Below, piece by piece: positions 35,261-61,562 of a stretch of 64,000 bases of DNA (position 1 is its first letter; every line of letters begins with the position of its first letter). Source of the stretch: Bacillus sp. SJS (lineage in GTDB: Bacteria > Bacillota > Bacilli > Bacillales > Bacillaceae); assembly GCF_000732485.2 (NCBI RefSeq), contig NZ_JAQV02000015.1:62001-126000 (forward strand), read 5' to 3'. Below the pieces are notes generated by a model. That model was not told where the DNA came from. It did not search any database and saw nothing but the letters and a program-made list of their open reading frames with translations. Position numbers and translations under genes: made by a program.

Positions 35261-35340
35261 AAGCTCTGTTAAACTTGGCTGTTGATTGAAGGTAGCAGGC
35301 GTTCGCTTTCCACTCCAATCAACAGGTGTTTAAAATCAAC
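35261..35340 (+). repeat. Dispersed repeat, internally deleted copy C
   Basis: Keeps both ends (AAGCTCTGTTAAACTTGGC and CTCCAATCAACAGGTGTTT) but has lost most of the interior, leaving about 80 bp. It lies between ugpB and ugpQ. Confidence 0.75.
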
Positions 35341-43057: not shown

Positions 43058-43818
43058 TTTTTTCAGTACTCCTGCTAAGCGGCTGCTCGGCAGATCATAC
43101 ACCAATCAATAGCGAGACAACCGGGTTTTTTAACCATTTTGTTGTATTCCCTTTTTCTGCCTTGATCAAATATACAGCTTCTCTATTCGGAGGCAGCTAT
43201 GGAGTAGCGATTATCCTGGTGACATTTTTAGTCCGTCTGCTCCTTATGCCGTTTATGATGAAGCAATACAAAAATCAGCAGCAGATGAAGAAAAAAATGG
43301 CGATTCTGCAGCCCGAAATGAAAAAGCTTCAGGAAAAATACAAAGACAAGAAAAAAGATCCGGAGTCCCAGCGTCTTATGCAGCAGGAAACCCTTCAGCT
43401 TTATCAGAAGCATGGGTACAATCCGCTTGCTATGGGCTGTCTGCCGATCCTGATCCAGACTCCCATTCTTTTCGGATTTTACTTCGCGATACAACGAACT
43501 CCGGAGATCGCTGCACATTCGTTTCTCTGGTTTGACCTGGGGCATCCGGACACCATCATGCCGATTATTGCCGCAGCTGTCTATTTCCTGCAGGCAAAAG
43601 TCTCCCAAATGGATATGCCGGCGGAACAGCAAAAGCAAATGGCCATGGTCGCCTATGTGATGCCAATTATGATGGGGGCTGCGTCATTCGGAACAGCCGC
43701 ATTTCTTCCTCTGTATTGGACCATTGGAGGAGTGTTCGTCATTCTGCAGACACTGCTTGCTAAGCACCTGTACAAAGAAAAAAATCTTCCTGCTGTTCCA
43801 AAAACACTGGAAAATTAG
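43000..43818 (+). CDS. yidC2: Membrane protein insertase YidC2
   Basis: Second YidC/Oxa1 family insertase (YqjG/MisCB type). 272 residues with a lipoprotein signal (LLLIFSVLLLSGCSADH, lipobox LSGC), five predicted transmembrane segments and a hydrophilic cytoplasmic loop (KNQQQMKKKMAILQPEMKKL). The substrate-groove arginine is in ILVTFLVRLLLMPFMMKQY. It is preceded by the mifM-like ORF and the Shine-Dalgarno hairpin, identifying it as the regulated paralogue. SpoIIIJ would lie elsewhere. Confidence 0.95.
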   Translation: MPNQSSKFTFLKRSSLLLLIFSVLLLSGCSADHTPINSETTGFFNHFVVFPFSALIKYTASLFGGSYGVAIILVTFLVRLLLMPFMMKQYKNQQQMKKKMAILQPEMKKLQEKYKDKKKDPESQRLMQQETLQLYQKHGYNPLAMGCLPILIQTPILFGFYFAIQRTPEIAAHSFLWFDLGHPDTIMPIIAAAVYFLQAKVSQMDMPAEQQKQMAMVAYVMPIMMGAASFGTAAFLPLYWTIGGVFVILQTLLAKHLYKEKNLPAVPKTLEN

Positions 43819-43826
43819 GGTTTCAG

Positions 43827-43855
43827 AGCGCCTCCTTTTCGGGGGCGCTTTTTTT
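43827..43855 (+). terminator. yidC2 terminator
   Basis: AGCGCC-TCC / GGG-GGCGCT stem with a T7 tail, eight bases after the stop codon. Confidence 0.85.
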
Positions 43856-43898
43856 GGCGGCTTCGGTTGGTGCTGATTTTGCCGGAAAATGCCGAATG

Positions 43899-44019
43899 GT
43901 CGCTTTTCGACATAACCCCGTTGATAATCGACATTTCTTGGCGGCTATTCGACAACCGTCTGTTGCTATTCGACATATTCCCGTTGCTATTCGACATTCC
44001 GCTGCTATTGACAACCGCC
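43899..44019. repeat. Tandem array of 21-bp units
   Basis: Five full units with steps of exactly 21 bp (TCGACA at 43907, 43928, 43949, 43970, 43991) plus a shorter sixth. Consensus on the plus strand is GTTGCTATTCGACATNNCCN. It lies between the yidC2 and prfC terminators. The minus-strand frame reads as heptapeptides such as MSNSNRR because 21 is a multiple of 3, but there is no ribosome binding site and I regard it as non-coding. Confidence 0.9.
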
Positions 44020-44032
44020 AAAGCTTCCATCT

Positions 44033-44065
44033 AAAAAGACGCCCGGCATCCCGCCGGGCGTCTTT
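44033..44065 (-). terminator. prfC terminator
   Basis: AAAGACGCCCGGC / GCCGGGCGTCTTT stem with a five-base loop and T5 tail on the minus strand, near the prfC stop. Confidence 0.93.
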
Positions 44066-44070
44066 CCATC

Positions 44071-45660
44071 TTATTGAGCCGTATAGCTCTGATAATCATT
44101 GCTCTCAAGCAGATCAATCAGTTTGATGTCTTTGTTGTTATCTTTGAAATAGCGGTACGTAAAGGAATTTTCAAATAGGACAGCGTACTGGCCGTAGCGG
44201 TCCTTTACGAGCATGCTGCGGTTATCGAACTTTTTGCGGTCCACTTTTTCATCCTCGATCCAGCGGGCAATCCTGTCACCAAGAGACGTCCATTCAATTT
44301 CAACGGTGTATTCGGAACGCATGCGCTCTTCAAACACTTCGAATTGCAGCTGGCCGACAGCGCCAAGAATGATATCATCTGTAAGCTCCTGGCGGAAAAG
44401 CTGAATAGCGCCTTCCTGTACAAGCTGATCAATTCCTTTTTTGAATTGCTTCGATTTCATAACATTCTTCGCCCGGACCTTTTTAAACATTTCGGGCGGG
44501 AACTGCGGAAGCTCTTCATATTCAAACCGGTCTTTACCCGCTACGAGCGTATCCCCGATTTGATAGGCATTCGGGTCATAGATTCCGATGATATCACCTG
44601 GATAAGCAATGTCCACTGTTTCCCGGTCTCCTGCCATGAAGGATTGCGACTGCGCAAGCTTAATGACTTTATTCGTTCTGCTTAATGTTACGTTCATTCC
44701 GCGTTCGAACGTACCGGAGCAGATACGCAGGAAAGCGATCCGGTCTCTATGCTTTGTATTCATGTTTGCCTGTATTTTAAATACGTATCCGGAGAAATCC
44801 TCTTTTTCAGGCTCGACAAAGCCTTCGTTCGTACGGCGCGGCTGAGGTGAAGCGGCAAATTGAAGAAACGTATCAAAGAAGGTCTGAACTCCAAAGTTGG
44901 ACAAGGCGCTTCCGAAAAATACAGGGGTCAATTCGCCTTTTCTCACTCGTTCAGGATCAAAGTCGTTACCGGCTTCATTTAGGAGTTCAAGCTCTCCCAG
45001 TGTATCCTGATAGGTTGGGTTTTCATAAATATCCGCTGCTTTTTCTTCAATTTCATTTACTTTAAAAACGGTCTCTTCTTCATTCCCGTTGAAACGGACA
45101 AATGATTCGGAATAGCGGTCATAAATACCGAGGAAGCGTTTCCCCATTCCTACCGGCCAGTTCATTGGATAGGACTCAATGCCGAGTACCTCTTCGATTT
45201 CCGCCAGGAGTTCAAGCGGGTCGCGGCCTTCACGGTCCAGCTTGTTCATGAATGTGAAAATAGGAATTCCGCGCATCCGGCATACTTTAAACAGCTTAAT
45301 CGTTTGCGGCTCTACCCCTTTTGTTGAGTCGATAATCATAACCACACTGTCCACAGCCGTCAGAGTACGGTACGTATCTTCACTGAAGTCTTCATGTCCG
45401 GGAGTGTCGAGAATATTTACGTGAAATTCATGATATGGGAAGCTCATTACACTTGATGTTACAGAGATTCCACGCTTTTTCTCAATTTCCATCCAGTCGG
45501 AAGCTGCGAATTTACCTGATTTCTTTCCTTTTACGGTACCCGCTGAGCGGATCACGTTTCCGAAGAGAAGCAGTTTTTCTGTTAATGTTGTTTTCCCGGC
45601 ATCCGGGTGGGAAATAATCGCAAACGTTTTGCGTTTATTAATTTCCTGTTTTAAGTTCAT
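44071..45660 (-). CDS. prfC: Peptide chain release factor 3
   Basis: GTPase that recycles RF1/RF2 after termination. 529 residues: G1 [15 protein letters not shown]3 [17 protein letters not shown]4 [12 protein letters not shown]. The length matches RF3 (about 525-530). B. subtilis lacks a conserved PrfC, but many other Bacillaceae have it, so this may be one of the lineage-specific genes. The gene is preceded by a divergent unit and has its own terminator. Confidence 0.95.
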
Positions 45661-48017: not shown

Positions 48018-48451
48018 TTGTTGCCTTTATACAGCCTGAAGAAGTGATCCCGCTCAGGCAAAAGCTCCTTCGCCCCGGCCAGCCCAAAGACGCTTGCCGC
48101 TACGAAAATGATGATAAGGAAAGCTCCTTTCACCTGGGGTGCTATGAAGATGAACTCTTAATCAGCATCGCGAGCTTTTCTGAAGAAGTTACTCCGCTTC
48201 TGCCAGGGGATCATCAATACCGCTTGCGTGGCATGGCTACCCTCCCGCAATACCGGAACCGAAAGGCAGGCAGCTCTTTGCTTACTAAAGCGGAACAGGT
48301 GCTCGCCGAAAGAAAAGCAGATTTGTGGTGGTGCAATGCAAGAACAAGTGTTGAAGCGTATTACTTAAAGCAGGGATTGCATCCGGTTGGTGGAGTTTTC
48401 GAAATAGAAGGAATCGGACCTCATCAGGTCATGTATAAACAACTGAAATAA
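48014..48451 (+). CDS. GNAT family N-acetyltransferase
   Basis: A 145-residue GNAT protein with beta strand HLGCYEDELLISIASFSEEV, the acetyl-CoA-binding region RLRGMATLPQYRNRKAGSSL, and the C-terminal CNARTSVEAYYLKQGLHPVG. Start is ATG 48014 overlapping the nitronate monooxygenase stop; the longer frame is inside that gene. Acceptor unknown. The 3' end overlaps a 13-bp perfect stem (48445-48479) that may weakly terminate transcription. Confidence 0.88.
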   Translation: MIVAFIQPEEVIPLRQKLLRPGQPKDACRYENDDKESSFHLGCYEDELLISIASFSEEVTPLLPGDHQYRLRGMATLPQYRNRKAGSSLLTKAEQVLAERKADLWWCNARTSVEAYYLKQGLHPVGGVFEIEGIGPHQVMYKQLK

Positions 48452-48479
48452 GCGATCCTGCACCAGATCGCTTATTTCA
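48445..48479 (+). terminator. Possible terminator overlapping the GNAT stop codon
   Basis: GAAATAAGCGATC / GATCGCTTATTTC, a perfect 13-bp stem with a nine-base loop. The T-tract after it is weak (CATTGG), so efficiency is uncertain. Confidence 0.55.
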
Positions 48480-48503
48480 TTGGCTATGTTAAAGCATGGT
48501 ATT

Positions 48504-48662
48504 GGTTTAAAACGCCTGTTGATTGGAGTGGAAGCCGTGAGACTTGTGCTTTAGAGCAGCGTGACAGGTGAGACCCCGCAGGCGCAAAGCGGCGGGAAGG
48601 CTCAAGCAGCCCGCCCAAGGATAAGCGAACGCCTGAATCAACAGCCAAGTTTAACAGAGCTA
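48504..48662 (-). repeat. Dispersed repeat, full copy D (inverted)
   Basis: Reverse complement of copy A: starts (minus strand) AGCTCTGTTAAACTTGGCTG and ends AATCAACAGGCGTTTTAAAC. The interior shows GCGCCTGCGGGGTCTCACCT and TGCTCTAAAGCACAAGTCTC. It lies immediately downstream of lanT and marks the left edge of the lantibiotic operon. Confidence 0.85.
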
Positions 48663-48667
48663 TTTCA

Positions 48668-50833
48668 TTAAATGGCTAGCTCCTCTTTACTATCCAACTG
48701 TGTTTTATAAAGCTCAAAATACAACCCTTTATTCCCGATTAATTCTGCATGGGTTCCTTCATCTATAATGCTCCCATTCTCCATTACAAAAATTCGGTCT
48801 GAGTCATAGATTGTTGAGAGCCTGTGGGCAATGACAATTCTTGTACAGCCCATTTCCTTCAGGTAATCCCCGACAAGCGCTTCATTGATTGAATCCAGCG
48901 AGCTCGTTGCCTCATCTAAAATAATCACCTTAGGCTGGCTGATCAGAGCCCGTGCTAAAGCAATCCTCTGTCTTTGTCCGCCCGACAGGTTCATTCCCAT
49001 TTCAGAAACCAGCGTATGGTACCCCATTGGCATGCTTTCAATTTCCTCAGCAATTTGCGCAACAGAAGCCGCTTTTTGGATATCCTCCATTGTGACGTCC
49101 TCTTTGTTCATTTTGATATTCTCCATAATGGAGTTGTTAAAAAGATTGATATCCTGCGGAACGATTCCCATTTGCTGACGAAGCTCCTGCTTATTATAGC
49201 GGCCAAGCTCGATGTCATCATAATAAATTTCACCTTCTGTAGGCATATACAGCCCCAGCAGAATCTTGCTCAGCGTGCTTTTTCCGGAGCCGGATGGACC
49301 CACAATCGCCACCTTTTCCCCACGTTTAATATGCATGCTGATTTTCTTCACTACTTTTTCTGAGTGCTTTGTGTAAGAAAAAGAAACATCCGAGAGTTTA
49401 ATATCCCCGGTAATTTGAGCTCCGGCAGGCTTCTCGGGATTTTCCTCTGTTTCTGAATCCGTAATATCCCTTACTCTTTCTAAATAGGCATTGGCGAGCA
49501 GAAAATTATTGTACGTTTGAAAGATTGATACACCAACGGCAAAGAATGTGATCGACAGTGTATGAAAAGCGATCATTTCTCCAAGCGAAATGCTTTTCTG
49601 AGCAAATAGATAGATTCCTATAAGCAAAATCAGCAGCGGAGACAGTGTTTGAATGGTTGTTTGCACAGAGGTGTAGGAATTTTGAATCTCCGAACGTTTT
49701 TTAAACTTTTGCAGTGCCCGGTTGAATTGATGGTTCCAATTCTTATAAACGGTATCCTCCAGCCCGGTCGTTTTGACTCCGAGGATGGAATAAAGAGCTT
49801 CGACCTGAATGGTTTGCAGCTTGCTGTTTTCGGCAATTTCATGCTGATTTGCCTCCAGAATGTGAGGTCTTGTATACATGGTTAAGGCACCGTTTATAAA
49901 AAATAAAATAAGGGCTGCCCCCGCAAGGACTGGTGAGCTGTACAGCATATACATGAGAATAAAAAAGATGGATCCAAAATCAATAAGGCCTTTGATTAGC
50001 TGTTCTGACAGTAAATCACGGATAATGTGCAAGCTGTTCATCCGGAACAAAATATCTCCAAATGAACGGACCTCAAAAAATTTATACGGAACCCGAAGCA
50101 GATGCATAAACGTTTTCCCCATCAGCGATTTTTCCAAAACCATCTGAAAGCTGATTAAATTCTTTCCTCTTATATAAATGAGGAGACCGAAAAAAGCAAT
50201 CAGTCCCGCTGCCGTCCCAATCAAAGAATTGAGCTGGCTGAATTTATTCTTCATGACCACTTCATCGATCAAATATTGGACCGCGATCGGAATGGAAAGA
50301 GTAAACAGGTAAGTTATGAAGGAAAGTAAAACGATTTTCAAAAAAAGATACTTATGATGAAACACATCAGAGAAAAAGGAGTACCAGATGTTTTCTTTTT
50401 TCCTTACTGGAACGAACTCATCAGAAGGCTTGACGGTTACTGCATAGTTCGAAAAAGACTGGTGCAGTTCTTCCCTCGTCAGTTTCTTCCGGCCAAAAGC
50501 GGGATCTACAATCACGGCCTTCGATGGTCCGATTTCTTCTAAAATGACATAGTGATTGTCATTCCAATATAATATGGCGGGAAGCTCCAGCTGCCAAAGA
50601 CCTTCGAACTCGGTTTTGTACACATGGGTTTCGAATTTTAAGGAAAGAAGCAGGGAATTAAGCTGGTAAAGAGTCAGTCCGTCTCTTCCTGCTTCAATAA
50701 AGTCCCTCAGTTCACTCAGCGAGCTCTGGCTTTTGTAGTATCTCGTGATCATAGCTGCGCAGCATAAGCCGCATTCCGTCTGCTGCATCTGGGGAATATA
50801 CGGAATTTTTCTCTTCCTATGATGAATGCCCAA
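48668..50833 (-). CDS. lanT: LanT lantibiotic exporter with C39 peptidase domain
   Basis: Bifunctional ABC exporter that removes double-glycine leaders and exports the modified peptides. About 721 residues from a TTG (50833): N-terminal C39 peptidase (Cys in QMQQTECGLCCAAM, His in WNDNHYVILEEIG, Asp in VIVDPAFGRKKL), central six-helix transmembrane domain, C-terminal ATPase (Walker A GPSGSGKST, signature LSGGQRQRIALARAL, Walker B VIILDEATSSLDS). The frame opens to an ATG at 50938 inside lanM2; the TTG gives the domain start expected from homologues, but the start remains uncertain. Last gene of the operon, overlapping lanM2. Confidence 0.92.
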   Translation of the reverse strand: MGIHHRKRKIPYIPQMQQTECGLCCAAMITRYYKSQSSLSELRDFIEAGRDGLTLYQLNSLLLSLKFETHVYKTEFEGLWQLELPAILYWNDNHYVILEEIGPSKAVIVDPAFGRKKLTREELHQSFSNYAVTVKPSDEFVPVRKKENIWYSFFSDVFHHKYLFLKIVLLSFITYLFTLSIPIAVQYLIDEVVMKNKFSQLNSLIGTAAGLIAFFGLLIYIRGKNLISFQMVLEKSLMGKTFMHLLRVPYKFFEVRSFGDILFRMNSLHIIRDLLSEQLIKGLIDFGSIFFILMYMLYSSPVLAGAALILFFINGALTMYTRPHILEANQHEIAENSKLQTIQVEALYSILGVKTTGLEDTVYKNWNHQFNRALQKFKKRSEIQNSYTSVQTTIQTLSPLLILLIGIYLFAQKSISLGEMIAFHTLSITFFAVGVSIFQTYNNFLLANAYLERVRDITDSETEENPEKPAGAQITGDIKLSDVSFSYTKHSEKVVKKISMHIKRGEKVAIVGPSGSGKSTLSKILLGLYMPTEGEIYYDDIELGRYNKQELRQQMGIVPQDINLFNNSIMENIKMNKEDVTMEDIQKAASVAQIAEEIESMPMGYHTLVSEMGMNLSGGQRQRIALARALISQPKVIILDEATSSLDSINEALVGDYLKEMGCTRIVIAHRLSTIYDSDRIFVMENGSIIDEGTHAELIGNKGLYFELYKTQLDSKEELAI

Positions 50834-53816
50834 TTTCGTTTCCCACCCCTCTGTATGGCATAACATCCAAAGAAAGCACAGATGGATAGACTGGATTCTG
50901 AAGCCTGAGCAGCGAATATCCGATACCTGAAAAACCAAGCATAAAACCCATCAATCCACCCGAAGGATTCAATCCATAACGAAAGCCTTCTTCACTAAGC
51001 GTGAAAAGATGACGGTCTCCAAGCCTTCGCGCACTTTCAAGAAGTTCCTGGTCTCCGAGGATTCCGGCTGCTACGAGGAGAATATCCAGATTTCCGAAGA
51101 TCCCGTGACAAAGACTGTGATTGGAATCCGCCTCAAATCCATCCTTCACTACTTTTTCGAGCGCGCGTTCAGCATCCCGTATTAGCTCCTCGTCTGTCCT
51201 GGCTGCTAAAACCACCATTTTCGCTCTCGCTAAACCGATTCCTGCTGCCCCATGGCACCAGAAAACGAGATCCTGATCTTCTTCAGGTGTTCTTAAATCT
51301 CTCCAATTTCCTGTTTCATCTCGAAAATACGAATTTTCCTTAGCAACCAGTTCTTTAGCCGCTTCTGAATATTTTTCCTCCCCTGCCGCTTTGCCAAGGA
51401 AAGAAAGGGCGTAAGCATATCCGGCTAATCCATGGGAAAAGCCTGTTAGAAAATCAGTTTTTTTCCTGCTTTCAAGAAAAAGATGTTCTCCCATGCGGCA
51501 TGCAAGAACCAGAAGCTCCTCTTCCTTTTCCTGTTCATACATATTTAAAAGACAGACGATTAATCCGGAAAGACCGCCGATCCAGTCGAGCTCTGTTTCA
51601 GAATTCAGTTTTATGTCCGATAGCATTTTCACATATGTCCGGTATTGTTCATATAGCTTCTGGTCATTCCATAAAACAGACAGGTTGTAGGACAAATAAA
51701 GCAATGAACCCAATCCGGAGTATACAGAGTGCGTCCGCTCTTCTTCCTTTAACGGCCACAGCTCCTCAAGTCCCCCGAGCGCTCCCCTTGCTAAAATCCT
51801 GTATCTTTCGTCACCCGTTTCTTCAGCCAAGGCAGCGAGAAATAAAACGGCACCGGCGCCTTCATATAAGGAATCATTTATTGGCCCGAGGTGGAGCTTG
51901 TCTTCCCTTCCTAAATTAGGGGAAAGCCATGTGCAGCTCGTTCGCTTGCTGTTCCAGATTGCGCGTTCCAAAAGAAGATCCCCAAGCTGAATGGCAGCAT
52001 CGAGCGGACTTGCCGGTAAATGAAGGAGCTTTTCTTCATTCACCATCTCCGCTTGATTTTCCTGATGACGGCCGCCCCAATTTTTATCAAGCTTTGATAA
52101 AACGGACATTCGAATGTAGGAAATCTGCTTCTTACAGTCCATCATGCTAACTTCCGCTATTCTTTTAACGAGCAAATCTTTCAATGAATATTCATAGTAA
52201 TTCCTTGCACAGATCTCACGGCCGGCATGCAGGTGCAGTCCTGAAAATTCCGCAGTAAAATACGGAACGTCGTTTCTCATTAACGACTCGATCTCAGCCA
52301 GGTTTTTTGCCGCCGTTTCCTCTGTTTCGTGTTCCCTGAGGTAGGAAAATAAAGCATTTCGATCTTCTATGCTGCGCATATAGCCGGGATGTCCGGCTGC
52401 CTCCAGAAAGCGTCCATATATGTGAGTCGCTCTCAGTACCTGCCTGTATGTCCCGTTAAACATCTCAATCCGTCTAATGAGTTCATCCTTGTGCTTTTCG
52501 ACTGTTTGGTATCCATCCGTAAAGCCCTGTTCCATACTGTTCAAATAATCAGCGGCCCGAACGGTTTCTCCATTCAATCTAGTAATATTCTGATTGCTTT
52601 CAGAAACAAAGAAATCCGGAGTGAATCGTATTTCATCGGTACCTGGATTGATAAGCTGATAGGTGATCACGCGGTCTGACGTTTCCCCGCCATGGCCAAG
52701 CAAACCGCTCACATCAAAATCAATAGGCGACTGCTCCAGGTTTTGAGGGAGCAAAAGCGTTCCAAGAACAGAGCGATCCAGCTCCTCGAAAAAAGCGGTC
52801 ATCAGTTCTCCGCTTTTCTCTCCTTGGGGTTCATGGGTAAGCAGGGTTTCCAAATCGATTACGACAGGGTACTCTCCGTTTGAAATGATGTTTTCATAAT
52901 GAATGTCACTGCATTTAAGAATTTTGAATAGAGCAAGCAAGACCCCGATTCGGTAATAATAATCCGTAACCTCTTCCGTGCTCCGGCATTCCTGATAAGG
53001 GATAAACTCCTGCCATCCGTATTCTCCGCAGCTGATGATGTTCGCTCCTTTTAATGGGACGCGCAGTTCCCCTTTTGACTGAACCCAGTTAAGGAGAGTA
53101 TAAAAGCTTTTCTCCGGTGAAAGAGTATGAGGCTTGTACACAATTTTTCTGCCGCTGATTGTTAAGATCAGAACCGTCTGTCCGTTATTATGGGAGTCTC
53201 CCATGCTGAATTGAATATCCTCGAGCAGCATCTGTGAAACGCCGAGCATCGATTGGACAGGAAGGAGGTCAGCCAATAGCCGGTTCAGCACGTCAGAGAT
53301 CAGCTGCAGCTTCGTTTTCATTTTTCCTTCTATTAAATAGATCAGCACAGGGTATTTATTAAATAGTTCAATAAAAACGTCTTTCGTCTGAAGAGATCGA
53401 TGATAATCGTGATAGCGCTCTTCCTTTGTCTCCCCTTGAATCTGTCCCGATTTCTTTTTTTCATACAGGTCCGTTATAAGCGTTTTTATCGATAGATTGA
53501 TGAGCTCTTCCTTTAAAGAAATAAGGCAGCGGATCATGATTTTTTCGAAGTTAATAGCTAAATCAATGGAAGGAATGGAATGGAGCAAAGCGGATAGGTC
53601 TTGTTCAAAGGAGCGGATGAAGGGTGTATAAAAATCATCAAATAGACCCGTTTCATTAAAATGATTGGCATAAGGGGTGTTTTCATAGGTTTGATGGATT
53701 ATTTTCTCCGCAAATCGCTGTTCAGGAGTTATAATGGTTTTCATAGCATCTGGTAACCTCTCACAATTAGATTCGTAAAAATTGGCATATGTATCGTAAA
53801 ACAAGGGTATGATCAT
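50817..53816 (-). CDS. lanM2: Class II lanthipeptide synthetase LanM (for beta peptide)
   Basis: Dehydrates Ser/Thr and cyclises Cys to lanthionine rings on the adjacent beta precursor. 999 residues: kinase-like dehydratase domain (about 100-620; FSMGDSHNNGQTVLILTISG, then KCSDIHYENIISNGEYPVVI-D-LE) and C-terminal LanC-like cyclase domain with zinc ligands in VFWCHGAAGIGLA and HSLCHGIFGNLD. Start 53816 follows AAGGAACC located in a hairpin; an alternative ATG at 53744 follows AGAGG. It lies 56 nt after the beta precursor and overlaps lanT. Confidence 0.93.
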   Translation of the reverse strand: MIIPLFYDTYANFYESNCERLPDAMKTIITPEQRFAEKIIHQTYENTPYANHFNETGLFDDFYTPFIRSFEQDLSALLHSIPSIDLAINFEKIMIRCLISLKEELINLSIKTLITDLYEKKKSGQIQGETKEERYHDYHRSLQTKDVFIELFNKYPVLIYLIEGKMKTKLQLISDVLNRLLADLLPVQSMLGVSQMLLEDIQFSMGDSHNNGQTVLILTISGRKIVYKPHTLSPEKSFYTLLNWVQSKGELRVPLKGANIISCGEYGWQEFIPYQECRSTEEVTDYYYRIGVLLALFKILKCSDIHYENIISNGEYPVVIDLETLLTHEPQGEKSGELMTAFFEELDRSVLGTLLLPQNLEQSPIDFDVSGLLGHGGETSDRVITYQLINPGTDEIRFTPDFFVSESNQNITRLNGETVRAADYLNSMEQGFTDGYQTVEKHKDELIRRIEMFNGTYRQVLRATHIYGRFLEAAGHPGYMRSIEDRNALFSYLREHETEETAAKNLAEIESLMRNDVPYFTAEFSGLHLHAGREICARNYYEYSLKDLLVKRIAEVSMMDCKKQISYIRMSVLSKLDKNWGGRHQENQAEMVNEEKLLHLPASPLDAAIQLGDLLLERAIWNSKRTSCTWLSPNLGREDKLHLGPINDSLYEGAGAVLFLAALAEETGDERYRILARGALGGLEELWPLKEEERTHSVYSGLGSLLYLSYNLSVLWNDQKLYEQYRTYVKMLSDIKLNSETELDWIGGLSGLIVCLLNMYEQEKEEELLVLACRMGEHLFLESRKKTDFLTGFSHGLAGYAYALSFLGKAAGEEKYSEAAKELVAKENSYFRDETGNWRDLRTPEEDQDLVFWCHGAAGIGLARAKMVVLAARTDEELIRDAERALEKVVKDGFEADSNHSLCHGIFGNLDILLVAAGILGDQELLESARRLGDRHLFTLSEEGFRYGLNPSGGLMGFMLGFSGIGYSLLRLQNPVYPSVLSLDVMPYRGVGNEIGHSS

Positions 53817-53822
53817 AGTGAA

Positions 53823-53858
53823 CGGTTCCTTCGCTGGCCTGCAAACCGGAAGGAACCG
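53823..53858 (-). promoter_or_regulatory. Hairpin between beta precursor and lanM2
   Basis: Perfect 10-bp stem CGGTTCCTTC / GAAGGAACCG, 16-base loop, no T-run. The 3' arm contains AAGGAA, the probable ribosome binding site of the 53816 start. It could stabilise precursor mRNA, limit lanM2 translation, or both. Confidence 0.75.
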
Positions 53859-53872
53859 AACCTGTCCTTACA

Positions 53873-54079
53873 TCAACCGCATTTAGATGTACATTTGAAT
53901 GTAGAACATACTGCGATAGAAAGTGCTACTGTAGCTCCGCAAGCCCAAGAAGAAGTCGTAATGGTTGCAGTACCTCCGGCAGGGTTTTCAGCAGAAAGCT
54001 TTTTAAGCTCGCTTTCAGGGATGAAACCTGCTGGATCTTCCGTTTTATAGATTTCGATAAGTTCAAGACCTTTTTTCAT
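53873..54079 (-). CDS. lanA2: Lantibiotic precursor, beta type
   Basis: A 68-residue precursor. The leader (about residues 1-36) is acidic and ends ENPAGG, a double-glycine cleavage site for LanT. The core of 32 residues starts TATITTSSWACG and ends VCSTFKCTSKCG: four Cys plus many Ser/Thr, with the C-terminal C-x4-C-x3-C ring pattern of lichenicidin/haloduracin beta peptides. Start is the ATG at 54079, six bases after GGGAGGTG; the GTG at 54088 overlaps that site. Twenty nt after the permease stop. Confidence 0.93.
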   Translation of the reverse strand: MKKGLELIEIYKTEDPAGFIPESELKKLSAENPAGGTATITTSSWACGATVALSIAVCSTFKCTSKCG

Positions 54080-54099
54080 TATTTTCACCTCCCTTCAAG

Positions 54100-54816
54100 T
54101 TAGGTAAGATCCTTGCGATTCAGGAAATAGACGGCCAATGCTGCAAAGATCATTCCCGATAGAATAAGACCGGTCACCTCCGCCTGATTCCATGCAGGTT
54201 GATGAATGACATTGCTTGCTGAGTAAAAAGGGATGTACTCAACCGCTCTCACAAGCCCCGAGAATTTTGAGACGGCCATCCCGATTACCGCCGGCAGCAG
54301 AAAGAAAAATCCGATGGCAGAGAATAAAGATGCGATTGTATGAGAAGACAGGACTGTCCACAAAAGGACAAAGCTCCCCACACAAAAGGTATAAACCAAG
54401 TATCTGCCAATCACTCCTGTCAGTTCAAGCACTGCATGTAATGCAGTCAGCTCTCCCATTACTCCTAAAAAAATGACTCCAATCATGCCGCTTACAAGCC
54501 CCATCAGCAATCCAAGGCCAAGAAGACTCACAATCTTTGAAAAGAGAATCTCCATCCTTGAATAACGATTCGTAAAAAGAATGGCAGAGGTCTTAAACTG
54601 AAATTCATCTCCCAGTGATTTTGCTGCAAAAACGATCAGCACATACTGCGCTATATCCGCAAAAAATGCATATACATTTCGTTTTCCAAACGATTCAGGG
54701 TTGAGAAATGCTACATAGGCAATCGCGCATGAGAAAAGCGAGGCCAGGATTACACCAAGATAAATACTTGGTTTCCTCATCAGCTTTTTCGTTTCTAATA
54801 CCGCTAAATTACCCAT
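54100..54816 (-). CDS. ABC transporter permease (probable lantibiotic immunity)
   Basis: A 238-residue membrane protein with six hydrophobic segments; the N-terminal LETKKLMRKPSIYLGVILAS pattern and DEFQFKTSAILFTNRYSRME resemble ABC-2 type permeases of immunity (LanE/LanG-like) systems. Start ATG 54816 overlaps the ATPase stop (54809). Together with the ATPase it likely expels the mature lantibiotic from the membrane. A generic ABC-2 function cannot be excluded. Confidence 0.8.
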   Translation of the reverse strand: MGNLAVLETKKLMRKPSIYLGVILASLFSCAIAYVAFLNPESFGKRNVYAFFADIAQYVLIVFAAKSLGDEFQFKTSAILFTNRYSRMEILFSKIVSLLGLGLLMGLVSGMIGVIFLGVMGELTALHAVLELTGVIGRYLVYTFCVGSFVLLWTVLSSHTIASLFSAIGFFFLLPAVIGMAVSKFSGLVRAVEYIPFYSASNVIHQPAWNQAEVTGLILSGMIFAALAVYFLNRKDLT

Positions 54817-55723
54817 TCTTCTCACTTCTTTCTGTCAGTTCAAAGTATTGCGTTTCCAGACTTTCCTTCCATTCATACACACTCGAAAAACCAATCCCGC
54901 GCTCGGCAATTTTTGAAATCAGAGCTTGGACCTGTTCTTTTTTTATTTGGATTCTGATCCGGTTCTGTGACAGGACAGAAGGCTCGTACCCTTCTTCCTC
55001 TAGAAAGGCAGTCAGCAGCATTTCATCATTAGACTCAAATACATAGAACACGGTATCCTGCTCTGTTTCCGTTAAGTGCAGGGTTTTGACAACTTTCCCG
55101 TTATTAAGCACGATGACCCGCTCGCAGATTTTTTCGATTTCATCAAGTGAGTGGCTAGAAATCAGCATGGCGATTTTTTTTGTCTCCGCGATGACCTTTA
55201 AATAATTTCTCAGATTCCGCATACCGGAAGGATCCAGGCCGTTTGTCGGTTCATCCAGAACGAGAAGCTTCGGATCGCCGATGAGCGCCTGGGCGATTCC
55301 AAGTCTTTGTTTCATTCCCATGGAATAATGCTTCACCTTTTTGTTTAGCGCATCTTTAATTTCCGTAAGCTCAGCCGCCTCGAAAATTTCTTCCTTCGTA
55401 ATGGACTTCGTTAAAGCGCCAAAGAATTGAAGATTTTCGTAGCCGGTCATATTCGGATAGTAGCCGGGGGACTCAATCACACAGCCGATTTCCTTGCGGG
55501 AAAACTTTTTACCCGTTTTTACACTCCTGTTATTTAAAAGGATTTCTCCTTCGTAATTTTTAATTAAACCCGTAATCATTCTCATTAATGTAGTTTTTCC
55601 TGCTCCGTTGGGACCAGCCAGTCCGACAATTTCTCCTGTACCGATGGAAAAGCTGACGTTGTCTGTAACAAGCTGATTTTTAATGCTTCTGCTCACCTGA
55701 TCGACTACCAGAATATTGGACAT
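54809..55723 (-). CDS. lanF: ABC transporter ATPase (probable lantibiotic immunity, LanF-like)
   Basis: A 304-residue ATPase of the BcrA/LanF type: Walker A GLAGPNGAGKTTLMRMI, Q-loop CVIESPGYYPNMTGYENLQF, signature YSMGMKQRLGIAQAL, Walker B LLVLDEPTNGLDPSGM, H-loop LISSHSLDEIEKI. The C-terminal ~90 residues form the regulatory extension usual in this group. The start ATG 55723 follows GGAGGAGG; the frame to 55783 is in lanM1. It is inserted between lanM1 and the beta precursor. Confidence 0.88.
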   Translation of the reverse strand: MSNILVVDQVSRSIKNQLVTDNVSFSIGTGEIVGLAGPNGAGKTTLMRMITGLIKNYEGEILLNNRSVKTGKKFSRKEIGCVIESPGYYPNMTGYENLQFFGALTKSITKEEIFEAAELTEIKDALNKKVKHYSMGMKQRLGIAQALIGDPKLLVLDEPTNGLDPSGMRNLRNYLKVIAETKKIAMLISSHSLDEIEKICERVIVLNNGKVVKTLHLTETEQDTVFYVFESNDEMLLTAFLEEEGYEPSVLSQNRIRIQIKKEQVQALISKIAERGIGFSSVYEWKESLETQYFELTERSEKNG

Positions 55724-55742
55724 ATGATCCTCCTCCTGATGG

Positions 55743-58700
55743 TTATTCAAACCATAAAATATCCGGAACGATAGACGGTGCATACTGCTTTAGCAGGGAA
55801 TATCCAAACCCAGTTAACCCGATCATGACACTCATTGAATCGGTTCCGCGGAAAACCCCTTCCTTCCATCGCTTTGATAAGACCTGATCAAAAATCTGCT
55901 GAAAGGTCGACAGCGCCTGGCTTTGCAGCTGCTGATCACCGAAGGTTTCGGCTGCGAGCTGAACAATTGAGAGATTCCCAAGATCCCCGTGGCAATAGGA
56001 TGGATTATGTCCAAACCCATTGCTCAAAGTGGTTGAAAGAGCTGTGACAATTTCCGAGTCGATCTGGTCATCGGTGTAGCCGGAACGCTTCAGCAAGAGC
56101 CTGCTTAGAAGAATGCCGGGCGCGCCATGACACCAGCCAATGGACATTCTTGTTTTTTCCGGACTTGAGTACCAGTTCCCGTGCTCCTCTGAAAATAACT
56201 CTCTTTCATAGGCTAAGGCTTGCTGGATGGTGTTCAGCACTTCCTCATCCTTTGTCAGCTCATACAGTTTTCCTAGATATGCAGCAATCCCTGCATTGCC
56301 GTGAGAAAAACCGGATCCGGGATTGGTCACATCTGATTTCCATGCAATGGATGAGCCGAAGATTTGATGGTTTTTTCTCAAATGAAGGAAATGGGTATGA
56401 GCGCAATCAAGGATAACCTCACGATCTCCTGGAGTCAGCTCCTCTTTGTATAAGGAAAGAATAGCCCCTATGCTTCCGGCAGAACCCCCGACCACGTCGT
56501 AAACCTTGTCTCCTGATGCCAGGGATTTCAGCTTATTCATATGACGAATGGCGAATTCCTTCATTTCCGGGTCCTTCAACAGCTTTCCTGTATGATAAAT
56601 GGCATATAAATAACCGCTTAAACCGTTATAGGCTCCAACCAGGTATGGATGCTTAAAATCCAGGCTCTTTATTTCCTGAATCGGAGAATAAATCGTTTGA
56701 GCTGCTGCCTTCTTATATTTTTCCATCCCGGTGATCTCACCTAGACAGGCAAGAAAGACAGCGATGCCGCTGTTGCCGTTATAAAGGTCATTTCCGACAG
56801 GACCAATCGACCACGTCTCTTCCTCTTTTCCTTCCAGCATCGTGCTGATCCAGGTCCGGTCCAAACCTTCTTCTTGATCCGCAACACTCGTTTCAAGCAG
56901 GTGATCGCCAATCCGGCATGCAAGCTCAAGCCACTTTTCCGGCTCCTTTTTATCTGGTTCAAAAGAAAATTGGATCCCTGTTACTTCAGATTCAGCACTG
57001 CTCGTCTTTGCTTTAAACGACATGTCAATGATACTCAGCTGTCTTTGCAAATCCGGATCTCCCATACTCCTGATTTTGTGGGCTGCTTCCATTAGCGGGG
57101 TCCGGTTAAACGCCTCATCCATCTGGATACGTCCATTCCAGGCAATTGCATTCATATCCGTTCTCGAAGTGAAATACGGAATCGATCCGGTCATGAGATC
57201 CATTATTTCTGCTTTCAGCAAAGGTTTTTTCAATCTGCTCGCATGAATGCCGATTCTGTGAAGGAGGATTTCTCTGCTCAATTCATCCCTTAGAAAATCC
57301 GGGTGCAGAGCCGTGCTCAGCAGCTGACTGTAAACATATGTAGGCCTCGCTATGTACCTGCTTTGATTTCCCGCGAACCGATTTGAAAGCTCGGCGATCA
57401 CCAGTTCCTTATTCTCCGCAATCCATTCATAAAGGGCTGTAAATCCGTCTTTGATCTCTTTTGAAAATAGTTCGGAGCGCTGAACCTCTCCCTTTAAGCT
57501 CGGATTATTTTGTTCCGAATCAAGGGTGCCGGAATGTTTTTCAATTTTGATCTCATCGGTCAAATTACCGGAAACTGTCAATGAAACAAATGGGGATGCC
57601 TGTTCATCCTCTCCGCCAAGTCCGCTGATGTCCACACTGATTTCCTTGCCATCCACTCTTTTCACAATTTTCTGCGGCAGCAATCCAGCTGAATACACAG
57701 ACCGCGCAAGCTGTTCATGGGCCATGACCTCTGATGTCGAAGCAAAAGGCAAATCGACAATCACGGAATGAAACAGGGATTCAAGATCAATCGGAACAGG
57801 GTGCTCGCCGCTGGCAATCAGATTCTCATGGTGAAAATCATTGGCATTAAGGATATAAAAAACGGCAAGCTGATGACCGATTCGTTTATAAAACCGCTCC
57901 GCTCCCTCTGTATCCGTGCACTCCTCGTAAGGAACAAATTCCATCCAGCCATACTCACCCCGGTCCATAATCAAAACCGTTTTCAAAGCGAGCATATCGC
58001 CTGCCTTCTGTTCGTTCAGCCAGTCAATAAAACGCTGATAAGCAAGCTCGATCTTTACACAGCGTGGTTTGTACACAGCCTTGAATCCTGATGTAAAGCG
58101 GACGATGGAAACCGTTTGGCCGCCATTATGGTCATCTCCCAAATTGTTATCAATTGAATCGATTTTTCCAATTCCATCCTTCAGTCCGAATGCTTCCTCC
58201 AGCAGAAGCTGATCCTTTTCCGTATGTGCAGCGATTTCCAGGACAAAATTCAAGTAGTTTGCAGAAGCAGAGTCCATCATACGGGTCAATACCGTATATT
58301 CCTCATACAAAGACCCGGTAAATTCAGGCTCTTTAAGAAGGGTGCCGGTAAAGTAGAGAAAACGAGCTTCAGAGGTTTCCCCTTCGAGCTTATTTTGAAG
58401 ACGGGCAATATTCACCTCTAAAATCAGGGTGCGAATCGCAAGATTATGAAGGGTTTTAAAAAGCTCCGATGCAGCCCGTATGATAAAGGTTTGCAGGGAC
58501 GAAATACTCGGATAGTTTTTTAGTTTCTCTTCAAACAAATCAAGGTGATGCTTCACTACCGGCTTAAAAAAGAAATAGAAAGGGACATGGCTGAATTTCT
58601 CGTCAATAAACCAGTCCTGATTTAAATTGGATTGGAAGGTTTGCATGAATTGAGGAATATTCTCTGAAGCTGGATGCGGGGTATGTAGTCGGCTATGCAA

Positions 58701-58838
58701 ATCATTCAGGCTTGTCATACCCACATCACCGATTACCTGTTCAAAATCCTCTGCAGTTTTAATCTCCGGATAAAGAGTCATCCAGTATTGAAGCGTATCC
58801 TGAAATTGTTCGCTGTACATGTTTGCGCTCATCATCAT
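55743..58838 (-). CDS. lanM1: Class II lanthipeptide synthetase LanM (for alpha peptide)
   Basis: Bifunctional dehydratase-cyclase dedicated, by position, to the alpha precursor. 1031 residues: dehydratase half with NNLGDDHNGGQTVSIVRFTS and ILNANDFHHENLIASGEHPV-PIDLE, cyclase half with GWCHGAPGILLSRLL and PSYCHGDLGNLSIVQ for zinc. It resembles LanM2 throughout, so the two are likely duplicates that diverged. Three in-frame ATG codons follow AGGAG; the third (58832) has optimal spacing. It is followed after 19 nt by the ABC ATPase. Confidence 0.94.
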   Translation of the reverse strand: MMMSANMYSEQFQDTLQYWMTLYPEIKTAEDFEQVIGDVGMTSLNDLHSRLHTPHPASENIPQFMQTFQSNLNQDWFIDEKFSHVPFYFFFKPVVKHHLDLFEEKLKNYPSISSLQTFIIRAASELFKTLHNLAIRTLILEVNIARLQNKLEGETSEARFLYFTGTLLKEPEFTGSLYEEYTVLTRMMDSASANYLNFVLEIAAHTEKDQLLLEEAFGLKDGIGKIDSIDNNLGDDHNGGQTVSIVRFTSGFKAVYKPRCVKIELAYQRFIDWLNEQKAGDMLALKTVLIMDRGEYGWMEFVPYEECTDTEGAERFYKRIGHQLAVFYILNANDFHHENLIASGEHPVPIDLESLFHSVIVDLPFASTSEVMAHEQLARSVYSAGLLPQKIVKRVDGKEISVDISGLGGEDEQASPFVSLTVSGNLTDEIKIEKHSGTLDSEQNNPSLKGEVQRSELFSKEIKDGFTALYEWIAENKELVIAELSNRFAGNQSRYIARPTYVYSQLLSTALHPDFLRDELSREILLHRIGIHASRLKKPLLKAEIMDLMTGSIPYFTSRTDMNAIAWNGRIQMDEAFNRTPLMEAAHKIRSMGDPDLQRQLSIIDMSFKAKTSSAESEVTGIQFSFEPDKKEPEKWLELACRIGDHLLETSVADQEEGLDRTWISTMLEGKEEETWSIGPVGNDLYNGNSGIAVFLACLGEITGMEKYKKAAAQTIYSPIQEIKSLDFKHPYLVGAYNGLSGYLYAIYHTGKLLKDPEMKEFAIRHMNKLKSLASGDKVYDVVGGSAGSIGAILSLYKEELTPGDREVILDCAHTHFLHLRKNHQIFGSSIAWKSDVTNPGSGFSHGNAGIAAYLGKLYELTKDEEVLNTIQQALAYERELFSEEHGNWYSSPEKTRMSIGWCHGAPGILLSRLLLKRSGYTDDQIDSEIVTALSTTLSNGFGHNPSYCHGDLGNLSIVQLAAETFGDQQLQSQALSTFQQIFDQVLSKRWKEGVFRGTDSMSVMIGLTGFGYSLLKQYAPSIVPDILWFE

Positions 58839-58857
58839 TTGCTCCTAACCTTGATAG

Positions 58858-58884
58858 AGATAGTGGCGGATCCAACCACTATCT
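58858..58884 (-). promoter_or_regulatory. Hairpin between alpha precursor and lanM1
   Basis: Perfect 9-bp stem AGATAGTGG / CCACTATCT with a nine-base loop and no T-tract. Counterpart of the hairpin downstream of the beta precursor. Probably stabilises the precursor message or attenuates readthrough so that precursor exceeds synthetase. Confidence 0.75.
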
Positions 58885-58900
58885 GCAGAAAATGTAAAAA

Positions 58901-59128
58901 TTATTGGCATGAATTCTGGCACTCTTTCGTAGCTGTACACACATAACCTTTGTTGCCTAAGTATTTACTTGCAGTTGCACATAGAGAAATCGTAATGATT
59001 GTTCCCCCAACTTGAGACATCATATCCTGAGCAGAAATCTCTTCAAGTACGTTTCCAGCAGGATTTTCTACAGATAGGGATGATTTCATTCTTAAAACCG
59101 GGTTTTTAAGAAATGCTGCTTTGTTCAT
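58901..59128 (-). CDS. lanA1: Lantibiotic precursor, alpha type
   Basis: A 75-residue precursor. The leader (about 1-42) ends SAQDMMSQVGG with a double-glycine site; ENPAGN occurs at mid-leader. The 33-residue core starts TIITISLCATASK and ends CTATKECQNSCQ: four Cys and the CTxTxEC motif, which in mersacidin/lichenicidin/haloduracin alpha peptides forms the lipid II-binding ring. GNKGYVC before it also matches haloduracin alpha. Start ATG 59128, eight bases after GGAGG. It heads the operon after a ~180-nt leader. Confidence 0.95.
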   Translation of the reverse strand: MNKAAFLKNPVLRMKSSLSVENPAGNVLEEISAQDMMSQVGGTIITISLCATASKYLGNKGYVCTATKECQNSCQ

Positions 59129-59133
59129 CGAAT

Positions 59134-59196
59134 TCACCTCCTCTTTTGCTGTGTTGATTTTCCGTTTTCAGGAAAAGCACACTTTATTTTTAACAT
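59134..59196 (-). CDS. 20-codon upstream ORF in the lantibiotic leader
   Basis: ATG (59194-59196) seven bases after GAGAGGA; encodes a basic 20-residue peptide (MLKIKCAFPENG...QQKRR). Its TGA stop lies within the lanA1 ribosome binding site GGAGGTGA, so ribosomes terminating here could reinitiate on lanA1. Function is inferred from position only. Confidence 0.5.
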   Translation of the reverse strand: MLKIKCAFPENGKSTQQKRR

Positions 59197-59315
59197 CGAT
59201 AAATCCTCTCTGTCTAACTCTTTTTTTTTTCTGAAAAACAGAAAAATAAGACTATCTTCCTTAATAGAAGGCCCATTTGATTCACAAATGCAAACAATCG
59301 TTACTTCCGTACATG

Positions 59316-59350
59316 ACAAATATATAAAAATATTTGTAATATCCTGTCAA
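59316..59350 (-). promoter_or_regulatory. Lantibiotic operon promoter with palindromic operator-like site
   Basis: Minus-strand TTGACA (59345-59350), 18-nt spacer, TATATA (59321-59326). A perfect 8-bp inverted repeat ACAAATAT-N6-ATATTTGT (59316-59337) covers the -10 and part of the spacer. It points to a repressor or response-regulator site. No regulatory gene is in the cluster. Confidence 0.75.
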
Positions 59351-59423
59351 AATGAGACAAACTATTTATTTTTATGATGATATGGGTCTGATTTTACAAA
59401 AAAGGGGAACTGCCATATAATAT

Positions 59424-59464
59424 AAAAAATCCTTTTCACTTTGTCTAAAGCAACAGGATTTTTT
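59424..59464. terminator. Possible bidirectional terminator stem
   Basis: AAAAAATCCT / AGGATTTTTT 10-bp stem with a 21-base loop and A/T flanks. No gene clearly ends here on the plus strand. On the minus strand it could end transcription arriving from the right toward the lantibiotic promoter. Confidence 0.4.
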
Positions 59465-59484
59465 CCAATTTCACTGTCGAACGG

Positions 59485-59668
59485 ATGGATGGTGAAGGGG
59501 TATTTCTGATCATTGATTCTCCCTCAGTCGCTGCAGAATTTCACCGCTAGGAATCTTGCTTTAAGTAATCCATTTACCATCAAGGCTTTCTATAAAAAAA
59601 TGATATAGCCGGACGAGCTTATTTTTCCCACAATTGGAAAAAATGACTTAAGTCACTCCGTCTTTTGA
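59485..59668 (+). pseudogene. Possible acetyltransferase (GNAT-like) remnant
   Basis: In plus-strand frames, MDGEGVFLIIDSPSVAAEFH is followed after one frameshift by LALSNPFTIKAFYKKM and, after a stop, PDELIFPTIGKNDLSH. The N-P-F-x-I-K-A-F-Y-K-K-M pattern resembles the C-terminal helix of GNAT proteins. Two disruptions and no upstream start suggest decay. It is a weak, eye-based call. Confidence 0.22.
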
Positions 59669-59731
59669 TTGATGATTTTTAATCAATATCAGATTATCCT
59701 TAAGGTAAGAAAAAGAAGGAGGCGTCTTTTC

Positions 59732-59821
59732 ATGTCATTAGAAATGTGGATCGCGATTGGATTAGCGCTGTTTAGCGGGGTTGCTGGAAGCGTTTATATG
59801 AACAACAAAAAAAAGCGATAA
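59732..59821 (+). CDS. 29-residue single-transmembrane small protein
   Basis: ATG seven bases after AAGGAGG. The peptide MSLEMWIAIGLALFSGVAGS-VYMNNKKKR has one hydrophobic helix (about 5-23) with small residues and a lysine-rich C terminus, typical of small membrane-bound peptides. Unrelated to known holins that I recognise. The next feature is the minus-strand terminator of the histidine phosphatase. Function unknown. Confidence 0.6.
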   Translation: MSLEMWIAIGLALFSGVAGSVYMNNKKKR

Positions 59822-59857
59822 AAAAAGCCCGCTACTCTTCAAGCTCGAGTAATGGGC
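59821..59857 (-). terminator. Terminator of the histidine phosphatase gene
   Basis: Minus-strand GCCCATTACTC / GAGTAGCGGGC stem with a mismatch and T7 tail. Confidence 0.8.
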
Positions 59858-59864
59858 CGGCAAG

Positions 59865-60449
59865 CTAGTTAATTTCGAGATGTTTTGTGCAGTTATAAAG
59901 CCCGCATGACCACTTAGAGTCATCCAGCAGAAGATGGGTGATCGAAGTATTTTTTAGCGGTTCGCTTTCTTCATTCATCGGCGTTAATTCCTTTAGGAGA
60001 TGTCTGATAAATGAACCATGTGTCACCATGAGAATGTTCTTGCCGGGATGCTTTTCCAAAAGCTCTTCAACAAATTCTACTCCTCTTTTTGTTACCTGGC
60101 CCGACTGCTCTCTGCCCAGGTCAAGTTCTCTCCACCCAGTTCCCCATTTTTCCACACGTTCAGCTTCTGTTGTGCCTTCAATTTCCCCGCCACCGGTTTC
60201 CCGGATGCGTTCATCTGTTACTACCTCTAGACCACCGAGCTTTTTACTGATAAAATCCGCCGTTTGTTTTGCACGGAGCAGCGGACTTGAATAAAGGAGA
60301 TCCCAGTCCTCTTCCTTAAGCCGTTCTGCCAGCATTTCTGCTTCTTTAAGTCCTTGTTCATGAAGCGGAATATCGGAGCTGCCCTGCGCTCTTCCTTCCA
60401 TATTCCATTCTGTTAGGCCATGTCTGACAATTCCTAGCTTAGTCATCAT
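59865..60449 (-). CDS. Histidine phosphatase family protein (phosphoglycerate mutase-like)
   Basis: A 194-residue enzyme of the branch 1 histidine phosphatases: catalytic RHGLTEWNMEGRAQGSSD near the N terminus, LLYSSPLLRAKQTADFI, and the second His in ILMVTHGSFIRHLLKEL. It lacks the long insert of true dPGM (about 230 residues or more), so a phosphatase such as PhoE/YhfR is more likely than a glycolytic mutase. Single-gene unit with its own terminator. Confidence 0.9.
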   Translation of the reverse strand: MMTKLGIVRHGLTEWNMEGRAQGSSDIPLHEQGLKEAEMLAERLKEEDWDLLYSSPLLRAKQTADFISKKLGGLEVVTDERIRETGGGEIEGTTEAERVEKWGTGWRELDLGREQSGQVTKRGVEFVEELLEKHPGKNILMVTHGSFIRHLLKELTPMNEESEPLKNTSITHLLLDDSKWSCGLYNCTKHLEIN

Positions 60450-60581
60450 TTCACTCCATTCATTGATTTTCTTCCATGTTATAGACTATTTTATCCCTTT
60501 CGGACGGACAAGTCTTCATTGACACATTAAACAGGCCATGATAATATACACAAAACCAAGTAATTTTATAGGATTAATTAA

Positions 60582-60680
60582 ATTATCAAGAGTGAACGAG
60601 AGAACTGGCTCTATGACTTCACAGCAACCTCCATTTGGAAAGGTGCTCCTACCAGCAAAGCGCAGTGCTTTGGCCGATAA
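60582..60680 (+). ncRNA. SAM-I (S-box) riboswitch aptamer
   Basis: The conserved elements are in order: P1 TTATC (with GATAA at 60676-60680), CAAGAGTG, ACTGGC, GACTTCACAGCAACC, AAGGTGCTCCTACCAGCAAAG, with the P4 AGCGCAGTGCT-type arm. The junction bases of the SAM pocket match the consensus. Under high SAM it should stabilise the anti-antiterminator and shut the gene off. Confidence 0.92.
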
Positions 60681-60695
60681 AGAAATGTTGACCGT

Positions 60696-60785: not shown

Positions 60786-61562
60786 ATGAAAGAACTGAAA
60801 AGAGTGATTACCGGCGCTCAGTCCTTTTCCATCTATAGAAGTTCTGAACAGGCCATTCTTTTGTGCCATGGCTTCAACGGCACCCCCCAGAGCATGGAAT
60901 CACTGGGAGAGAAATTTGCCTCATTAGGCTATTCTGTATATGCTCCAAGACTTGCGGGACATGGTACATGTCCGTCCGATATGGAGCTATGCTCAGTTCA
61001 AGACTGGTACCGCTCATTGGAAACTGCTTACTTAAAATTAAAGAGCCGATTCAGAAAAGTATTTGTTATTGGACAATCCATGGGCGGCAGTCTGACGATT
61101 AAGCTTGCCAGCCAATTCACGCAAATCGATGGAATAGGTCTTATTAATGCAGCACTTGAAGTTCCAGATTACGAAAAGATTGTCGGAGATACTGGTTTTA
61201 TCAAGGAGGGACGGCCAGATATAAAGGATCCGTCTGTGGAGGAAATTGCTTATGAAAAAATACCTGTTAAAGCCATTTCCGAGCTGAGAAAGGCTATGAA
61301 TGAAGCAAAAATCAGGCTTGCAGAAGTCTCGTGTCCAGTCGTTGTATTCTGTTCTCCGGAGGATCATGTTGTTCCTGCCTCCTGTTCTGAAAGGATCATG
61401 GAGTCCATTTCCGCCAATCGTAAAAAGATGATTAGCCTTCCAAATTCTTATCATGTAGCATCCATGGATTTTGACCAGGATTTGATCGTAAGGGAAGCCA
61501 ATCAATTTTTCTCCATACAAAAAACAGCCCTTCCTGCCAATAGGAAGAGCATGAACGCCTGA
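60786..61562 (+). CDS. Alpha/beta hydrolase (carboxylesterase/monoacylglycerol lipase-like), SAM-regulated
   Basis: A 258-residue serine hydrolase of the Est30/lysophospholipase type. Oxyanion-hole motif CHGFNGTPQSM, nucleophile elbow GQSMGGSL (Ser at about residue 98), catalytic Asp in FCSPEDHVVPAS, His in NSYHVASMDFDQ. No signal peptide, so cytoplasmic. It is the only gene downstream of the SAM riboswitch. Regulation by SAM suggests a role in methionine/sulfur or methyl-ester metabolism, but the substrate is not indicated by the sequence. Its 3' end contains the bioY terminator. Confidence 0.87.
   Translation: MKELKRVITGAQSFSIYRSSEQAILLCHGFNGTPQSMESLGEKFASLGYSVYAPRLAGHGTCPSDMELCSVQDWYRSLETAYLKLKSRFRKVFVIGQSMGGSLTIKLASQFTQIDGIGLINAALEVPDYEKIVGDTGFIKEGRPDIKDPSVEEIAYEKIPVKAISELRKAMNEAKIRLAEVSCPVVVFCSPEDHVVPASCSERIMESISANRKKMISLPNSYHVASMDFDQDLIVREANQFFSIQKTALPANRKSMNA
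61518..61550 (-). terminator. bioY terminator inside the 3' end of the hydrolase gene
   Basis: Minus-strand GCTCTTCCT / AGGAAGGGC stem with a five-base loop, then TGTTTTTT. The genes are convergent with three bases between stop codons, so this terminator lies within the neighbouring coding sequence. Confidence 0.75.

Follow-up and report, generated by a model that had tools for sequence, protein, structure and literature searches.

Among described two-peptide lantibiotics, lichenicidin of Bacillus licheniformis and vagococcin T of Vagococcus fluvialis offer the main points of comparison for the cluster analyzed here. Lichenicidin is represented by locus L074, which comes from a genome of the same family as the window (the whole stretch of 64,000 nucleotides from Bacillus sp. 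SJS) and encodes lichenicidin-type precursors that we take to be lichenicidin itself. Its A2-M2-T and A1-M1 arms are divergent, an S8 peptidase is encoded, and the hexapeptide of its beta precursor reads NDVNPE. The window cluster shares with it similar alpha and beta cores, two LanM enzymes and a C39 LanT, but all its genes are on one strand, an F-E pair stands between the modules, LanP is absent, and GG adjoins the beta core. For vagococcin T, the published description gives the order F-E-A2-M2-A1-M1-T, calls a LanM gene between the precursors unusual, and reports a purified and weighed product (PMC9431498). As in the window, its precursor-LanM modules are apart, F and E are present, and Table 1 of the description lists no LanP; unlike the window, it has a different order, LanI, and an Fsr-like regulator (PMC9431498).

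Two further types of loci are close in content. The Staphylococcus epidermidis plasmid SAP106A (L062) carries sub-cassettes A1-M1-F-permease and A2-M2-T, as does the window, but in the opposite cassette order, with an S8 peptidase and distant LanM enzymes. Two uncharacterized clusters, L077 from the window's family and L125 from its class, share the LanM1, LanM2, and LanT clades of the window and have the one-strand order A1-M1-A2-M2-T, but in both F and a permease not recognizably related to E follow LanT.

Gene content and predicted product

The cluster occupies the minus strand and is read from 59128 to 48668 in the order A1, LanM1, F, E, A2, LanM2, LanT. All seven genes named in the earlier note are present on this strand, with open and tightly packed frames whose start codons were chosen from the sequence. 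The junctions computed from the coordinates are, in gene order, +62, +19, -8 (or -17), +20, +56, and -17 nt, consistent with the range of -17 to +63 given previously. This spacing is what suggests transcription as one operon, promoter-like sites being not above chance (14 found versus 19.6 in shuffles). A stem-loop between A1 and LanM1 (58858..58884, minus strand) is a possible attenuator (-13.3 kcal/mol, z -3.48, 0 of 200 shuffles as good). Another stem-loop candidate, between A2 and LanM2, was rejected (z -0.28, 69 of 200 shuffles as good). Downstream of LanT lies a terminator-like hairpin of 15 pairs (48444..48479, minus strand, z -5.06), the scan as a whole yielding 13 such sites versus 11.7 in shuffles, i.e., no excess. 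An intergenic repeat at 48501-48655, beside the left border of the cluster, recurs as an 84% copy at 11605-11752 and is matched in part at 35268-35339.

The alpha precursor A1 (58901..59128, minus strand, 75 aa, GAGGAGGTG ahead of its ATG) matches the plantaricin C family NF000539 (88.2 bits, cut-off 29) and PF14867 (41.7 bits, cut-off 27). Its leader runs to VGG and is followed by the core TIITISLCATASKYLGNKGYVCTATKECQNSCQ, which contains CTATKEC, an instance of the CTxTxEC motif. The beta precursor A2 (53873..54079, minus strand, 68 aa) matches the LchA2/BrtA2 family NF038161 (41.1 bits, cut-off 26) and no Pfam family; its leader runs to NPAGG and its core is TATITTSSWACGATVALSIAVCSTFKCTSKCG. 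Each core has four cysteines, as the earlier note had counted. Aligned with the lichenicidin-type cores of L074, 20 of 32 residues are identical for alpha and 18 of 29 for beta. These alignments and the family matches, which greatly exceed chance, support the suggestion of a new lichenicidin-like pair. The computed monoisotopic masses of the unmodified cores are 3511.68 (alpha) and 3168.50 (beta), from which each dehydration subtracts 18.01. NF000539 exceeds its cut-off in 13 of 397 genomes of the order and 14 of 398 of the class, the window's own genome included and the two samples overlapping. The plasmid search returned two records for A1 and none for A2 (limit 0.1).

Two LanM enzymes are encoded on the minus strand: LanM1 (55743..58838, 1031 aa), presumed to act on A1, and LanM2 (50817..53816, 999 aa, alternative ATG at 53744), presumed to act on A2. 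Both match TIGR03897 (898 and 800 bits, respectively; cut-off 304), and in the tree they are placed with the M1 and M2 enzymes of other loci. LanM1 groups with L058, L077, and L125 (100/100) and LanM2 with L077 and L125 (100/100). A search of genome contigs with LanM1 gave four loci, all distant; the plasmid search gave 195 records, all under 60% identity; and among 23 genomes of the family of G806 there were five matches, all already known, and no new locus. LanT (48668..50833, minus strand, 721 aa) starts with TTG, overlaps LanM2 by 17 nt, and combines a C39 peptidase domain (PF03412, 127.7 bits, Pfam cut-off 22) with an ABC exporter (PF00664, PF00005); it groups with L058, L077, and L125 (100/100), the L058 protein being its sister (97/95).

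Between the modules lie F (54809..55723, minus strand, 304 aa), an ABC ATPase presumed to be a LanF-type immunity subunit, and E (54100..54825, minus strand, at most 241 aa), an ABC-2 permease presumed to be a LanE-type subunit that starts at GTG (54825) or at ATG (54816). In addition to the ABC_tran match, the best NCBIfam match of F is the lantibiotic protection ATPase family TIGR03740, at 200.5 bits, under its cut-off of 309.75. E matches over the cut-off only the general ABC-2 families PF12730 and PF12679. No regulator gene is seen within the cluster, in agreement with the earlier note, and a scan of ten flanking open reading frames assigned eight to other families and gave no match for the remaining two, which are small. 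S8 peptidases of the LanP type, also said to be missing, are absent from the window, all four of this genome lying elsewhere.

By this gene content, LanM1 would dehydrate and cyclize A1, and LanM2 would do the same for A2. LanT would then cut both leaders at GG and export the peptides. The alpha peptide is predicted to bind lipid II through the CTxTxEC ring and to recruit beta, which would form pores in Gram-positive competitors, while the F-E pair would protect the producer. The mode of action is drawn by analogy with lichenicidin alpha, as described in PMC9863751; for romsacin, another two-peptide lantibiotic, pore formation reportedly could not be measured (PMC10715183).

Distribution of the cluster within the genus

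Judged by the permease and LanM1, the cluster is found in two of six genomes of the genus, the window's own (4.15 Mb, 36 contigs) and one of the same species. A block of about 11.2 kb is missing from the other four. In G001, homology reaches window position 48450 and resumes at 59639, so that 154 bp there correspond to 11,188 in the window (48451..59638). In G005, the flanking homology stops at 48439 and starts again at 59880, and 201 bp lie in between. The nearest flanking matches are about 755 bp apart in G003 (versus 12.1 kb in the window) and about 2.1 kb apart in G002 (versus 14.9 kb), which leaves no room for the cluster. Its absence from all four makes acquisition of the cluster probable, and acquisition by this species is a simpler reading than loss elsewhere. 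The G+C content of 0.44-0.47 over 48-58 kb and 0.39 at 58-60 kb, in a window of 0.42-0.47, does not clearly indicate a foreign origin.

The genes around the block are ordinary. On one side, it is flanked by those for release factor 3, aldo/keto reductase, nitronate monooxygenase, and an acetyltransferase, and on the other side by those for histidine phosphatase, alpha/beta hydrolase, BioY, and a glyoxalase-like protein. A SAM riboswitch (60580-60683, plus strand, 74 bits) lies about 100 bases upstream of the alpha/beta hydrolase gene (60786-61562), which to our knowledge is not a usual gene for this riboswitch.

The second genome of the species (L078) is 99.25% identical over 11,500 bases, and its cluster frames have the same lengths, none being broken. 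A single silent change is found in each of A1 and A2, the proteins being identical. The silent and other codon changes number 4 and 4 in LanM1, 21 and 11 in LanM2, 24 and 3 in LanT, 2 and 3 in F, and 1 and 2 in E. SNPs are denser in LanT and LanM2 (61 per 5149 bases) than in the rest of the cluster (19 per 5312; Fisher p 8e-7). Different module histories within the species were considered as a cause and rejected: the best step in density is near 51980, inside LanM2, and a break at the module border is thus unsupported. SNPs are dense at 49800-52200, covering the first part of LanT and the last part of LanM2, and sparse at 52800-59999, as if one stretch had recombined. Outside the cluster, the alignment to the second genome has 74 SNPs within the 600 bases 43800-44399, where the release factor 3 gene ends and the short open reading frames are repetitive; this may be a misaligned repeat.

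The leader of the beta precursor

Beta peptides commonly retain a hexapeptide after cleavage by LanT, which is then trimmed by LanP, according to PMC10006061. For 13 of the 22 loci retained in the survey below, we aligned the beta precursors on the leader motif ELxxL, the window and L077 rows being registered by eye. All 12 other precursors have glycine at position -2 (GG, GA, GS, GT, or GN) and six residues from there to the presumed core; in L077, for example, GN is followed by EDVSGG. The window A2 has AE at this register, then NPAGG, and then the core start TATITTSSWAC, equal in length to TTPATTSSWTC of lichenicidin. Thus, the G[GAS] site with a hexapeptide, a common feature that is neither universal nor decisive for membership in the group, is not seen in it. 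The beta core also has CSTxxC where 11 of the 12 others have CPTxxC.

The window leader has a parallel in the wider group, since the beta precursors of L068, L072, L073, and L130, all outside the alignment table, have GG shortly ahead of the CPT region and no visible hexapeptide. Presumably these are lacticin-3147-like. S8 peptidases were detected by phmmer with three S8 sequences in the stretches of 5 of the 13 aligned loci (L062, L063, L064, L074, and L124); a motif search for LanP was dropped, as it missed the annotated LanP of SAP106A. The absence of LanP from the window is consistent with GG standing directly before the beta core. However, the link between leader and LanP is not strict, since the haloduracin-type locus L065 and also L125, from the window's own clade, keep the hexapeptide with no S8 peptidase in their stretches.

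A tentative reading, to which we give somewhat less than even chances, is that beta is matured in one step. The cluster would have lost what its relatives have, namely the LanT site, the hexapeptide, and LanP, and would have placed GG at the core border. LanT would then do both jobs, on a leader that exceeds the usual length by some five residues after the conserved ELxxL. Along with this, the immunity ABC pair may have been exchanged for one that fits the altered peptide.

Gene order and the origin of the immunity pair

The earlier note considered the gene order special on the ground that precursors are adjacent in the lichenicidin and haloduracin clusters. We annotated 35 loci, drawn from hits to the alpha family, LanM1, and plasmids and hence not a random sample, and kept the 22 with alpha, beta, and two LanM genes; the beta genes of L067, L069-L071, and L134 were placed from separate analyses. 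Among the 13 loci dropped, L078 is of the same species as the window, and the full set was not found in the stretches of L058, L066, L079-L082, L127-L129, and L131-L133. Precursors are separated in 11 of the 22 (the window, L062, L063, L067, L069, L070, L071, L076, L077, L125, and L134) and adjoining or divergent in the other 11 (L064, L065, L068, L072, L073, L074, L075, L123, L124, L126, and L130). The argument is therefore supported only in part: separated modules are also published for vagococcin T, but immunity genes between the two modules are found in the window alone (1 of 22), and its exact order was met only in this species. L063, like SAP106A, has A2-M2-T followed by A1-M1-F, the same sub-cassettes swapped, and L076 has the order A1-M1-A2-M2-T-F of L077 and L125. 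Across the surveyed loci, the same core genes are arranged in several ways, among which the exact order of the window is rare but a minor point. Tandem precursor genes were also seen: two alpha genes with identical cores before LanM1 in L075 (9739-10215) and two nearly identical beta genes in L124 (5914-6370).

None of the titles and beginnings of abstracts listed in the literature searches names this cluster, and no paper was found with any of three strings of its peptides. Published gene-map figures and most subscription papers lie outside this search, which therefore does not establish the exact order as new.

No relative of E was found at an E-value of 1e-8 in the other 396 of 397 genomes of the order, and no plasmid record at a limit of 1e-3; a PDB search gave two matches only, both at chance level. 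Among the permeases compared, the best match of E is the second permease on SAP106A (31.8 bits), followed by a weak one in L072 (10.5 bits). The plasmid search with F at 1e-50 gave 13 records, all under 60%. No literature on the E-loop in LanF was found.

Insertion of a precursor-LanM module, proposed earlier as the cause of the order, is not the best reading, because LanM1, LanM2, and LanT all group with those of L077 and L125, in which the modules stand side by side. That a whole module was inserted beside an existing single-peptide cluster is improbable, even though L058, a Priestia plasmid whose LanM1 and LanT fall in the window's clades and whose LanT is the sister of the window's, has A1-M1-T and no adjoining beta module, and SAP106A and L063 carry the same sub-cassettes in another order. 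The uneven SNP density could also point this way, but its step falls inside LanM2 and not at a module border. The changed part looks instead like the immunity pair, since E cannot be matched significantly with the permeases that adjoin the F genes of L077 and L125, and in the tree the window F is not joined to their F proteins and belongs to no well-supported set. With moderate confidence, judging from these comparisons of sequence, we favor a swap of the immunity pair in the window cluster over module insertion.

A rather unlikely variant is relocation, in which the original pair shifted from its place behind LanT to its present position and no foreign pair came in. It would agree with the best BLAST match of the window F among 20 other F proteins compared being that of L125 (38% over 303), and the evidence against it, the separation in the F tree and the lack of a match for E, concerns proteins and permeases that diverge fast, with weak tree support. 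Finally, the cluster might be decaying and produce no active lantibiotic, as its beta precursor has neither the customary cleavage site in the leader nor the CPT motif, and LanM2 has 11 amino-acid codon changes between the two genomes. The unbroken frames in both genomes, the identical precursor proteins, and the excess of silent over amino-acid changes in LanT make this very improbable.

In summary, we are highly confident that the window contains a two-peptide class II lantibiotic cluster that is complete and belongs to the lichenicidin/haloduracin group, with predicted functions in modification, export, lipid II and pore action, and F-E protection. The species probably acquired it as a block of 11 kb, at a site that relatives keep empty, and F-E has probably taken over from the pair found after LanT in related clusters. 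The genes, families, intact frames, empty site, and tree placement are observed; the pairing of each LanM with its precursor, the product, the mode of action, the immunity role of F-E, and the direction of the gain are predictions. This is a new, intact cluster within a well-known group, with the immunity pair and the beta leader as its notable parts, and it adds a predicted new two-peptide lantibiotic whose cores are defined and whose place in relatives is clearly empty. With its beta leader, the cluster is a natural case for examining how tightly the LanT site is tied to one distance from the leader helix, and why many beta peptides keep the LanP hexapeptide at all.
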